The notes under the pieces: generated by a model
The model's input: the letters and a program-made list of their open reading frames with translations, nothing else
Database searches by the model: none
Told to the model about the DNA's origin: nothing
Position numbers and translations under genes: made by a program
Assembly (NCBI GenBank): GCA_007618135.1
Contig: PHFX01000001.1
Span: 62,001-126,000 of the forward strand
Direction of reading: 5' to 3'
Length of the DNA stretch: 64,000 bases
From: Candidatus Brocadia sp. WS118
GTDB lineage: Bacteria; Planctomycetota; Brocadiia; Brocadiales; Brocadiaceae
Shown: positions 27,303 through 31,692 of the stretch, piece after piece
Layout of the letters: each line of letters starts with the position of its first letter
Position numbering within the stretch: position 1 is the stretch's first letter

Positions 27303-29231
27303 CTATGAAGCATGATTTAATTCAGGAAACAAATACGACATAAGTTCTCTGGCAATAGGCCCTGCAATATCTCCGCCATGTCCCGGAGTATGTTCCACAA
27401 GAATGACAAAGCAGTACCGCGGGTTTTCATAAGGGGCGTAACCGGCAAACCAGGCATGGTTGTCTTTATGGCGTCCTGTTTCTGCCGTGCCAGTTTTCCC
27501 GGCGACCTTGTATATATCCAAGCCCGTGTCTTTGGCAGTGCCACGGGTAACTACGTCCTGCAAAGAAGTACGCAGCAGGGTGATAATATCAGGGGGCAAG
27601 GAGAGTTTCTGTTTATGCTTTGACTGAAATGTCCGAACCGTTTCTCCCTGACTATTGGTAATTTTTAATAAGACGTGGGGCTGAACTAACGTGCCGCCAT
27701 TTGCTATGGCAGCATACATCCGGACCAGCTGAAGTGGTGTGGTAAGCAATGCCCCTTGTCCGATGGCAACGTTCATGGTGGCTGCCGTGGTGGCTAATTT
27801 TGGCATATTGCCTGCTTTTTCATGAGGGAGGTCAATGCCCGTCTTCTCACCAAGGCCAAACTTTTTAGCCCATGCATATAAAGTATCTCCGGCAAGGATC
27901 TTTGCGGTCTCAAAGAAAAATACGTTGCAGGAATAAGGAATAGCGTCTTCTATGGCAACTAATCCGTGGCCATACTCCGCCCAGCATTTAAAAAGGATGT
28001 TTTTGTATTTGATATAGCCCGGACACTCAAAAACCGTTTGCGTTGTTATCCCGTTTGAACTCAGGGCTGCAGTTGCCGTGATGAGTTTAAAAATGGAGCC
28101 GGGTGGTAATGCGCCCTGTATAGCCCGGTTGAGGAAAGGCTTTGAAGGGTGCCTGATAAGCTTGCGAAAATCCTTTTCAATCGTATTGGGGTTAAAGCGT
28201 GGATTGCTGGCCATGGCCAATATTTCACCGCTCCAGGGGTTCATAACGATAACAGCGCCTGAGTTTGTGCCAAGTGATTTTTCTGCATGGGCCTGAATTT
28301 GGCTGTCGAGGGTGAGATAGAGGTTATTTCCAGGAACGGGAGGTCTTTCCAGCACCGTTTTTTCAATCTGGGTATTTTTGCAGGTAATTTCTTCAAACTT
28401 CTTCCCCCGTAGTCCATGCAATTCTTCTTCATAGTACGCTTCAACCCCTGTTCTGCCGATCGTGTCGTTTTCGGCGTAACCGTCATAGAGCAATGAAGTC
28501 GTTTCGTTGCCGGCGCTGCTGGAAGCCAGGATAAAATTATTCCAGTTATTGCTATGAACTTTCCATTCATCATCGGTGAGTTTGCCAATATACCCTAAGA
28601 TGTGCGAGGCGAGTGTTTGTTCCGGATATATTCTTTCTGGTCGGGGAGTAACACGTATGCCAGGGAATTCATCTGGTTTTGTTTCTATCTGAATAATCTT
28701 TTCCCACGCGACTTCAGAAACAATAGGATAAAAATCCGTTTCCTCTTTTATACGGATTGCCCTGCCATATTTTTGTTCCATATTCCGTTTCAGTTTCTCG
28801 ATTTTTTCGATGGCCGCATCCGTGTATTCTAATAACTTAATTTGCGGAATATTCAGCAGCTGGGATAGTTTTTTTAACCATATGTCCTGATTTTCATGGC
28901 AGTCACCGCACGATTTTTTTGCCTTTTTATGCACGTCCATTTCCGTAATTCGTGGAATGGTTTTTTTCATGCGCGTTACAGAGCAATAGAGCAGGTTCTT
29001 ATAATTCACAGAGATGTCAAAGGCATGTTGGTCGATAGCCAGGGCCTTCCCGTTTCTATCGAAAATCGAACCCCGTGTTGAATCTAAAGGATACGTGGCG
29101 ATCCGGCGGGTTTTTGAGATGCCTTTGTATTTATCGCTCTCCAGAATCTGGAGCTGAAAGAGTCTGACAACGATGCAGATAAAAAACAAAACAAAAAAAA
29201 CAAGTATCGCCTTAAAACGGAAAGGATACAT
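27303..29231 (-). CDS. mrdA: Penicillin-binding protein 2 (elongasome transpeptidase) carrying a CxxCH motif
   Basis: PBP2 crosslinks peptidoglycan during lateral growth, anchored by one N-terminal helix (residues about 8-28). The 642-aa product has the dimerisation region (DSTRGSIFDRNGKALA) and the transpeptidase motifs SxxK in PPGSIFKLI, SxN in IPYSCNVFF, and KTGT in VAGKTGTAETG. An insertion after about residue 80 holds CGDCH (residues 108-112), a haem c attachment motif not expected in PBP2. It lies in the periplasmic part. Otherwise the family pattern is complete, so the enzyme is probably active. It follows mreD by 3 bp and closes the mreB-mreC-mreD-mrdA operon. Peptidoglycan has been reported for anammox bacteria, which fits a working elongasome. 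Confidence 0.93.
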   Translation of the reverse strand: MYPFRFKAILVFFVLFFICIVVRLFQLQILESDKYKGISKTRRIATYPLDSTRGSIFDRNGKALAIDQHAFDISVNYKNLLYCSVTRMKKTIPRITEMDVHKKAKKSCGDCHENQDIWLKKLSQLLNIPQIKLLEYTDAAIEKIEKLKRNMEQKYGRAIRIKEETDFYPIVSEVAWEKIIQIETKPDEFPGIRVTPRPERIYPEQTLASHILGYIGKLTDDEWKVHSNNWNNFILASSSAGNETTSLLYDGYAENDTIGRTGVEAYYEEELHGLRGKKFEEITCKNTQIEKTVLERPPVPGNNLYLTLDSQIQAHAEKSLGTNSGAVIVMNPWSGEILAMASNPRFNPNTIEKDFRKLIRHPSKPFLNRAIQGALPPGSIFKLITATAALSSNGITTQTVFECPGYIKYKNILFKCWAEYGHGLVAIEDAIPYSCNVFFFETAKILAGDTLYAWAKKFGLGEKTGIDLPHEKAGNMPKLATTAATMNVAIGQGALLTTPLQLVRMYAAIANGGTLVQPHVLLKITNSQGETVRTFQSKHKQKLSLPPDIITLLRTSLQDVVTRGTAKDTGLDIYKVAGKTGTAETGRHKDNHAWFAGYAPYENPRYCFVILVEHTPGHGGDIAGPIARELMSYLFPELNHAS

Positions 29232-29234
29232 AAA

Positions 29235-29735
29235 CTAATGATCCTTGAACAAAAAAAGTTTCTGGGTGGGCTGAAATTTATCGAATATCCAAAACAGAAC
29301 AGGGACAAACAGCGCCGTGTAGAAAGAACAGCAAAAGATCATCCAGAGGGTTGATGAAAGATAGAGTGAATGAAAGAATATTGCCAGGTGAATAGTATAA
29401 ACAACGTTGTATATGAGCGAAAAAATAAACGTAATGAGGATTTGGGTAACCAAATGTCCTCTGAAGAGCATTTCCCGAAAGGACCAGATGAAAAAGCCTA
29501 TTGCAACAAAGAGTACGGAATTTATTCCAAAACTCCCTTCTGAAAATAAGTCTTTTGACATGCCCGTCAGCCAATTTGCAAGGGTATTTCGCTTCATATC
29601 GGTGAGAAAGGAATAAAACACCACCAAGGGAAAATACAAATCGGGTACTGCTGACCCAAGGTTAATCCAAGACATCAGGGTTGACTGAAAGAGGGAGATG
29701 CAGAACAGAATGCACAAAAAGGTAAACCACCGCAT
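29235..29735 (-). CDS. mreD: Rod shape-determining membrane protein MreD
   Basis: MreD is the small multi-pass membrane component of the elongasome. The product has about five to six hydrophobic segments with short loops, and the family-like stretch FPLVVFYSFLTDMKRNTLANW followed by GMSKDLFSEGSFGINSVLF. ATG at 29735 has a good SD (AAAGGA, 8 nt), giving 166 aa. An upstream in-frame TTG at 29771, also with an AGGA, would add 12 basic residues, so the exact start is open. Position between mreC and mrdA supports the call, since MreD sequences are poorly conserved. The gap to mreC is short and the stop lies 3 bp before the mrdA ATG. Confidence 0.85.
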   Translation of the reverse strand: MRWFTFLCILFCISLFQSTLMSWINLGSAVPDLYFPLVVFYSFLTDMKRNTLANWLTGMSKDLFSEGSFGINSVLFVAIGFFIWSFREMLFRGHLVTQILITFIFSLIYNVVYTIHLAIFFHSLYLSSTLWMIFCCSFYTALFVPVLFWIFDKFQPTQKLFLFKDH

Positions 29736-29819
29736 ACCGGTATTCCTTTGTAAAGGCCGACGTTTTCTCAATATTTTTTTCCTTCTTCTTAATTAAAATG
29801 AAAATGCCTATACAGGTGC

Positions 29820-30656
29820 TTAGTGCGAATTTGTAATAACGAGCACACTCTCGATTTTCGAAATATTCACCCGGGGCAATACCTTTACTGATTGAAAGAG
29901 TGCGCCACTTTTCAATTCATTTTCCACCACGGTAGCAATGGGTAAGGAGGGTGGATAAAGCCCGCCAATGTCAGAGGTAACAATATCGTCTCCTTTTTTC
30001 AACTGTGCCCAGCGCGGCGCATATTTTAATTTACAAAAGGCAGTTGCATTTCCCTCAACAATCACCTGCTCGCGCGTTTGAACAACCCTTCCTGGTATGC
30101 GCGCGGCGGGGTCCGTGATAAGTTGAACAACACTATTCCTTCCACTCACGGTAGTAATCTTTCCAACGAGCGCATTATTTGACACGACGACGTCGTTCGG
30201 TTTTACCCCATGTTTTGAGCCGGCGTTAATCGTTATGCTTTTCCTGAAATTTGACGCGTCGTATCCAACAATATCCGCCGGTATGGGACTTTTTTTCATG
30301 GTTGTGTTTTCTGCCTGGAATTTTGAAAGGTTACGCAATTTATTCTGTAGTTTGTAAATGGTATCCTGTTGTTCAACGAGCTTATTTTTGAACTGCAGGA
30401 CTTGCTCTTCCAGGTGTTTCTTCCCTTGTGCGTCGTGTAATGCAGAGATAATTTTATCAAAAAAAGCACTGGCTTTGTTACTGCAAAAGCAGGTCGCCCA
30501 TTGTACCGGCCGCATTGGGGCAGCACAGGTCATTTTTACACGGCTTGAGACGGCCGGTGGTAAAAATAACAGAACCAGAGATATTACGAAAAGGGTAATT
30601 ATTGTTGCAAGGGGGTGTTTAATGAGATTGCTAAAACTAGGGGTGGATGTCCTCAT
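29820..30656 (-). CDS. mreC: Rod shape-determining protein MreC
   Basis: MreC is a membrane-anchored periplasmic scaffold that activates PBP2. The start at 30656 (MRTSTPSFSNLI) leaves one transmembrane helix at residues about 20-40. A coiled coil follows (KHLEEQVLQFKNKLVEQQDT to LQNKLRN), then the beta-rich domain with DIVGYDASNFRKSITINAG, GVKPNDVVVSNNALVGKI, VVQLITDPAARIPG and VTSDIGGLYPPSLPIATV, which are family hallmarks. A longer frame begins at 30716 but would overlap mreB by 80 bp. The chosen start overlaps it by 20 bp. Two extra Cys (ATCFCS) sit just after the helix, which is unusual. The length of about 278 aa is normal. Confidence 0.92.
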   Translation of the reverse strand: MRTSTPSFSNLIKHPLATIITLFVISLVLLFLPPAVSSRVKMTCAAPMRPVQWATCFCSNKASAFFDKIISALHDAQGKKHLEEQVLQFKNKLVEQQDTIYKLQNKLRNLSKFQAENTTMKKSPIPADIVGYDASNFRKSITINAGSKHGVKPNDVVVSNNALVGKITTVSGRNSVVQLITDPAARIPGRVVQTREQVIVEGNATAFCKLKYAPRWAQLKKGDDIVTSDIGGLYPPSLPIATVVENELKSGALFQSVKVLPRVNISKIESVLVITNSH

Positions 30657-31692
30657 CCTGCAGAACAGATTTAAATAAATCAAGGTTTTCGAGGAGATAA
30701 CCCGTTCCTCTTGCAACGGCTGTTAAAGGGTCGCCGCCTATTTGTACCGGAAGACCCGTTTCTGCTCTCAGGAGTTTGTCTATGCCCCTGATCAATGCGC
30801 CTCCGCCTACCACTACCAGCCCATTGGTTATTAAATCTGACGCCAATTCCGGCGCCGTCCTTTCCAGGGCAGATTTTACCGCGCCTAATATTTTATCGAA
30901 GGGTTCTTTTAACGCCTCCCTGATTTCTTCAGAGGTGATGGTCGCCGCCCTTGGCAAACCAGCGATAGCATCGCGCCCGCGTATTTCCATCGTGAGTTCT
31001 TCTTCTAAAGGGTAGGCAGAGCCAATTTCTATCTTTATTTGTTCTGATGTGCGGTGCCCGATATCCAGGTTATAGGTTTTTCGTATGTATTGGAGGATCG
31101 ATTCGTCAAATTCATCTCCCGCAATCCTGAGGCTCTCATGCGTAAAAATATCGCCGAGGGATATAACCGCTACCTCTGTGGTTCCGCCTCCGATGTCAAC
31201 GATCATACTGGCTATCGGTTCGCCCACCGGCAGGCCAACACCAATCGCTGCCGCCTTTGGTTCGGAAACCAGATACACCTCCCGAGCGCCGGCGCGCTCG
31301 GCGGAATTTACTACCGCCCGTTTCTCCACCGCAGTAATACCGGAAGGAATTGCAATCAATACCCTGGGACGGACACCCCATTTGCGTTTATGCACCTTCG
31401 TGATAAAATATTTGAGCATGGCCTCAGTGATATCGAAGTCCGCTATAACGCCGTTTTTGAGCGGACGGATAACGGAGATGCTGCTCGGCGCCTTTTCAAG
31501 CATGGCCTTTGCAACGTTTCCTACTGCATTCCCGTTTAAAAGAACTTTATTCGTCCCCGGTTTCACGGCAACAACCGAAGGCTCTGACAATACGATCCCT
31601 TGTCCCGGTATGCAGACAAGGGTATTGGCCGTACCAAGATCAATCCCCATATCTGTGGAAACAAAGCCTAATATAAAATCTAACGGGTGCAT
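30637..31692 (-). CDS. mreB: Rod shape-determining actin homologue MreB
   Basis: MreB forms membrane-bound filaments that direct wall synthesis. The 351-aa product has the actin-fold signatures: phosphate-1 MGIDLGTANTLVCIPGQG, the connect region, phosphate-2 MIVDIGGGTTEVAVISLG, and adenosine motif GLVVVGGGALIRGIDKLL. EPKAAAIGVGLPVG and GDEFDESILQYIRK are also typical of MreB rather than other actin-like proteins. The length is standard. It heads the mreB-mreC-mreD-mrdA operon and is preceded by about 200 bp that separate it from lnt. The first ten or so residues (MHPLDFILGF) are a plausible membrane-binding amphipathic segment. No odd residues were noticed. Confidence 0.97.
   Translation of the reverse strand: MHPLDFILGFVSTDMGIDLGTANTLVCIPGQGIVLSEPSVVAVKPGTNKVLLNGNAVGNVAKAMLEKAPSSISVIRPLKNGVIADFDITEAMLKYFITKVHKRKWGVRPRVLIAIPSGITAVEKRAVVNSAERAGAREVYLVSEPKAAAIGVGLPVGEPIASMIVDIGGGTTEVAVISLGDIFTHESLRIAGDEFDESILQYIRKTYNLDIGHRTSEQIKIEIGSAYPLEEELTMEIRGRDAIAGLPRAATITSEEIREALKEPFDKILGAVKSALERTAPELASDLITNGLVVVGGGALIRGIDKLLRAETGLPVQIGGDPLTAVARGTGYLLENLDLFKSVLQDEDIHP

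Follow-up and report, generated by a model that had tools for sequence, protein, structure and literature searches.

In other bacteria, the pedestal of PBP2, the peptidoglycan DD-transpeptidase with which the elongasome makes the side wall of the cell, touches RodA. Work on solved structures has defined the head part of this pedestal as residues 78–165 in Acinetobacter baumannii PBP2, and has placed MreC in the groove between the head and the anchor in Helicobacter pylori (PMC9974482). The A. baumannii enzyme also has a zinc site, whose ligands are D350, D365, H371 and C384 (PMC9974482). Covalent haem, on the other hand, is known from another kind of extracytoplasmic protein, the haem Cache domains, in which a cytochrome-derived CXXCH fragment has been inserted and whose signalling members have NO-sensor properties (PMC12889525). 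A bare peptide can suffice for haem attachment; CcsBA loads CXXCH peptides down to a 9-mer with haem in vitro, and both Cys residues and the His are required (PMC8112865). Anammox genomes encode this type of machinery (system II), and in the published working model it resides on the anammoxosome membrane and not on the cytoplasmic membrane (PMC4222556). Here we describe a haem attachment signature in the PBP2 of the anammox order Brocadiales and argue, from sequence comparison, that this protein probably has a single c-type haem, covalently bound, in a loop inserted into its head.

The pbp2 gene and its inserted head loop

The DNA analysed (the window) is a stretch of 64,000 nucleotides from Candidatus Brocadia sp. 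WS118 (contig PHFX01000001.1, positions 62,001 to 126,000), whose genome is G000 in our genome set. The gene of interest and its neighbours are the following.

27303..29231, minus strand: pbp2/mrdA, 642 aa, peptidoglycan DD-transpeptidase of the elongasome (TIGR03423, Pfam and Foldseek)
29142..29225, minus strand: N-terminal membrane anchor of PBP2, residues 3–30 (predicted helix)
27339..28259, minus strand: transpeptidase domain of PBP2, residues 325–631 (PF00905, 1.4e-76)
29235..29771, minus strand: putative mreD, directly upstream of pbp2 and named by its place between mreC and pbp2
29820..30716, minus strand: mreC (PF04085, 2.2e-41)
30637..31692, minus strand: putative mreB (open reading frame and sequence read by eye)

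The encoded protein scores 529.7 bits against the pbp2_mrdA equivalog model TIGR03423, above the cut-off of 455, and contains the Pfam domains PBP_dimer and Transpeptidase. Its top Foldseek matches are the PBP2 structures of Yersinia and E. coli (E 7.7e-46 and TMt 0.85 for the Yersinia protein). The catalytic motifs S379xxK382, S434xN436 and K579-T-G581 are all present, and in the PBP2 alignment S379, K382, S434, N436, K579 and G581 are invariant and T580 is nearly so. The gene lies in an mre neighbourhood, with mreC and apparent mreB and mreD genes upstream. The window's MreC (29820–30716, minus strand) has three cysteines of its own, C64, C76 and C78, arranged as C-x11-C-x-C after the membrane helix (MTCxxPxRPxQWATCFCSN) and conserved in Brocadiaceae, and a further one, C228, that is present in 22/22 aligned sequences.

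The inserted loop and the residues discussed below map as follows.

28881..28988, minus strand: inserted loop of the pedestal head, residues about 82–117 (alignments)
28974..28976, minus strand: codon 86, not Cys in the window PBP2 (Cys in Scalinduaceae at the aligned position)
28929..28931, minus strand: His101, candidate distal (sixth) haem ligand (alignment)
28896..28910, minus strand: CGDCH, residues 108–112, c-type haem attachment signature (sequence and conservation)

A first-pass annotation of the window had reported CGDCH at PBP2 residues 108–112, in a periplasmic insertion absent from ordinary PBP2, and each part of this description is borne out. The motif occupies window positions 28910..28896. 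The insertion is without counterpart in the solved PBP2s: alignment with them jumps from query residue ~81 to ~136, and the Acinetobacter PBP2 has no extra residues there. As to location, the single predicted anchor helix (residues 3–30), together with the topology of the class B PBP family, would place everything beyond residue 30 outside the cytoplasm. Since the insertion maps to the head and MreC-docking region, the loop belongs to the extracytoplasmic regulatory part of the protein and not to its catalytic domain. In planctomycete PBP2s outside Brocadiales the insertion point holds either no loop or unrelated sequence, with the exception of one class-level relative (family f8, below), and it is a length hot spot among these other proteins. 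Structure prediction of the insertion, which the annotation had suggested, was informative only for its surroundings. AlphaFold gave good PBP2 models with either a Brocadia or a Scalindua sequence first, but pLDDT was below 50 at residues 98–113 and 89–113, respectively, and the loop had no fold; it is predicted to be flexible.

PBP2 also has a known zinc site, overlooked in the first-pass annotation, which is separate from the CxxCH motif.

27927..28025, minus strand: C403, C416, H422 and C435, counterparts of the zinc ligands known in PBP2 (alignment)

These residues align with D350, D365, H371 and C384 of A. baumannii PBP2 and are invariant in our alignment A2, and they appear to constitute a Cys3His version of the A. 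baumannii-type zinc site. The idea that CxxCH might itself be the known PBP2 zinc site is ruled out, as that site maps to C403/C416/H422/C435.

Conservation and distribution of the motif

Of 62 Brocadiales genomes searched, 60 are readable at the site (G050 and G054 are not), and 59 of the 60, spread over five families, have CxxCH in PBP2. The alignment across Brocadiales that had been proposed thus finds the motif conserved, and the possibility, raised at the same time, that it is unique to this strain does not hold; it is fixed throughout the order. In 59 aligned distinct Brocadiales PBP2 sequences the first Cys is found in 59/59, the second in 59/59 and the His in 58/59. Between these residues the xx positions are occupied by 23 different dipeptides, and besides the motif no column from ~83 to 117 rises above 75% identity. 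Even the frame-broken PBP2 of G014 still has the motif, as CGECH. The sole exception is genome G033 (L060; G033:C1:3438062-3439978), in which a single base has changed the His codon to CGT, giving CRECR; this is a single-contig genome, and its CRECR may be either a true loss or a sequence error. One further CxxCH occurs in the long open reading frames of the window, the CIICH of a PlsX-like protein (PF02504; 49056–50069, plus strand). It presents a contrast, with a near-invariant xx because its entire cytoplasmic segment is conserved. The G033 sequence and the unfolded state of the loop in AlphaFold might be taken to favour a functionless motif that arose by chance and drifts neutrally, but the fixation of Cys-x-x-Cys-His in 59/60 genomes while the neighbouring columns drift rules out a chance motif, and we give this explanation almost no weight.

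The motif is accompanied by a fourth ligand-type residue, which the first-pass annotation had also overlooked and which differs between families (f1 and f4 in our set are Brocadiaceae and Scalinduaceae, respectively, as judged from named relatives). His101, at variable spacing upstream of the motif, is present in 44/44 non-Scalinduaceae sequences and in 0/15 from Scalinduaceae, and position 86 is Cys in 15/15 Scalinduaceae and in 0/44 of the others. The two are thus perfectly complementary, each invariant inside its own group in an otherwise drifting loop, and the ligand swap between them is one event on the tree. Since CxxCH goes with either His101 or Cys86, there are four conserved ligand-type residues at the site.

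A 392-genome sample of the phylum was searched with a profile that included the loop, and the PBP2s of 39 of the better matches outside the class (other planctomycetes) were read; none of these 39 has CxxCH. In another planctomycete family, the PBP2-like protein L157 (G136:C172) has a zinc-ribbon-like CQRCG...CIRCG at the same insertion point, which suggests that unrelated Cys modules can settle there. Inside the class, the PBP2s examined from families f6, f7 and f9 have no CxxCH, and those of f9 are without the whole loop. Family f8 is represented by L091 (G065:C35), whose loop can be aligned and contains two CxxCH motifs (CAQCH and CLECH) as well as an upstream His-Lys. In a quick PBP2 tree L091 groups with f9 (support 98), adjoining Brocadiales, which is most simply read as a loop older than the order that f9 has lost. 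Within the order, the hydrazine synthase alpha domain was found in families f1–f4, which makes the distribution of the PBP2 motif almost the same as that of the anammox bacteria. Genomes G064 and G065 (f7 and f8, outside the anammox order) gave 11 and 16 hydrazine synthase alpha domain matches, respectively, mostly in large proteins.

The presence of cytochrome c maturation genes, which had been assumed for this organism, could be verified, as CcsA and ResB are both encoded in the window's own genome. More generally, CcsA is present in every genome with a CxxCH PBP2 but one, which is 58% complete, and ResB is missing among these genomes only in the 58%-complete one and in one that is 86% complete. 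Family f9 is without both CcsA and ResB in 6/9 genomes; two genomes of this family have the machinery but no motif. Among class genomes without any CcsA/ResB match, none of those whose PBP2 N-terminus was read has CxxCH. The co-occurrence of motif and machinery passes a test that was able to refute haem, but ancestry confounds it.

Haem, zinc and other readings of the site

If the loop does carry haem, PBP2 would be exported with its one N-terminal anchor helix, leaving the loop outside the cytoplasm, and after export the system II synthase CcsA/ResB would link haem to C108 and C111. H112 would be the proximal ligand, and the distal side would be taken by H101 in Brocadiaceae and other families or by C86 in Scalinduaceae, which would make this a low-spin haem with His/His or Cys/His ligation. 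A residue able to act as distal ligand is thus conserved in both groups, although some haem proteins do without one. His/His ligation is known among c-type haems. Cys/His axial ligation of a c-type haem is known in Tll0287 (PMC12889525). A change in ligation or redox state might then alter the head, and hence its contact with MreC or RodA. As head and anchor form the MreC groove and the pedestal touches RodA in other bacteria, the most likely role of the haem would be to tune elongasome assembly or activity to the redox state or to NO, or else to stabilise the head. The more specific proposal that the loop is a cytochrome-like minidomain within the MreC-docking head, through which redox state or NO would gate the synthesis of peptidoglycan, is speculative, and we think it rather unlikely to be right.

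Haem is favoured because the residues that CcsBA requires, both Cys and the His, are exactly the invariant set; the predicted flexibility of the loop and the position of the known PBP2 zinc ligands elsewhere in the protein point the same way. The same residues could, however, bind a structural zinc or another metal, with H101 or C86 joining C108, C111 and H112 to fold a haem-free loop, and the His101/Cys86 pattern would also fit a four-ligand zinc site. The conserved ligand-type residues number exactly four and include a His/Cys exchange, a pattern that is a common sign of structural zinc (C2H2, CCCH; PMC7614390). The zinc-ribbon-like module of L157 at the same insertion site and a weak A2L_zn_ribbon match for one Scalinduaceae loop also speak for zinc; in the profile search no zinc family scored above its cut-off for the window PBP2 or its relatives. 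Judged as a zinc finger, though, the site has two of its four ligand-type residues, C111 and H112, next to each other, and sequence-adjacent ligands, of which SecA is an example, have been called unusual and unfavourable (PMC7614390). A zinc site would also be expected to allow His/Cys exchange at its other ligands, but only the distal residue varies in this way: over the 59 sequences C108, C111 and H112 never trade Cys for His or His for Cys, and the one departure is a single Arg at H112. Moreover, a free CxxCH that is exported would be a system II substrate in any case (PMC8112865), and a zinc role would not explain why the motif occurs only in lineages that have cytochrome c maturation. We regard a zinc site as the main, though unlikely, alternative.

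A redox-active C108–C111 disulfide, perhaps exchanging with MreC cysteines and tuned by the His, would draw on the fact that MreC is a known partner of the PBP2 head (PMC9974482) and on the extracytoplasmic C64/C76/C78 cluster that Brocadiaceae MreC has near the membrane. This thiol switch is improbable, since the MreC cluster is missing in the Scalinduaceae and f3 loci examined, which retain CxxCH, and since it leaves the H101/C86 exchange and the near-invariant H112 unexplained. The earlier suggestion of a haem-linked wall synthase accordingly stands in part: its anatomy is correct and the evidence favours haem over zinc or a disulfide, but zinc is still a rival.

Several points count against the haem reading itself, namely the lack of a profile above cut-off, the single swap event, the confounding by ancestry, the model that puts maturation on the anammoxosome membrane, the CRECR of G033 and the unfolded loop. 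The best cytochrome match of the window loop reaches 15.6 bits against a Pfam cut-off of 24.8, and no cytochrome Pfam model scores above its cut-off for this loop or its relatives; the best match of L091 is to Paired_CXXCH_1 (0.0015, 18.6 bits, cut-off 20.6). A shuffled loop in which CGDCH was kept matched Cytochrome_C7 at 0.023, as compared with 0.014 for the real loop, and because this control is so similar the Pfam cytochrome matches of the loop were dropped as evidence. Among the other wall proteins, CxxCH is missing from the two RodA/FtsW homologues, from PBP3 and from MreC, and the wall machinery therefore does not have the motif as a general trait.

Anammox bacteria convert ammonium to nitrogen gas without oxygen. 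Their cell wall was demonstrated only in 2015 (PMC4432595), and our literature search found no report of a haem-bearing PBP or of a peptidoglycan synthase with covalent haem. The PBP2 site is fixed in almost all of the anammox order; if it does hold haem, respiration and wall growth would be coupled in organisms that handle NO, and if the haem also gated synthesis, the growth of the wall would be tied to a metabolism that draws its energy from NO and hydrazine. Haem Cache domains would then no longer be the only case of a bare CXXCH fragment taken up by an unrelated protein, PBP2 being the second.

Comparison with known systems

The Brocadia protein shares its fold, transpeptidase motifs, anchor and mre neighbourhood with PBP2/MrdA as known from TIGR03423 and from the E. 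coli (6g9p), A. baumannii (7zg8) and H. pylori (5lp5) structures. It differs from these solved PBP2s, and from the 39 other planctomycete PBP2s, in its ~35 extra head residues, its CxxCH and its fourth ligand-type residue. The zinc site of A. baumannii PBP2 is close to the active site, within the transpeptidase domain, whereas the Brocadia CxxCH lies in the head and is thus a second site. Should its metal be zinc, the C-terminal zinc domain of SecA, a different protein with adjacent Cys-His ligands, would be a possible analogue (PMC7614390), with no homology implied.

With the class III and multihaem cytochromes (Cytochrome_C7, Cytochrom_CIII, Paired_CXXCH_1) there is a shared His-Lys upstream of CxxCH, and the best matches of L091 are in this group; the Brocadiales PBP2s differ in having a single motif, and no model of the group scores above cut-off. 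The closest precedent in manner of working is sCache_heme (DUF3365, Tll0287), where a short CXXCH insert likewise sits in an existing extracytoplasmic domain (PMC12889525). We claim no homology between the two, as sCache_heme is a Cache fold found in sensors, whereas Foldseek assigns the present protein to the class B PBP fold and not to Cache.
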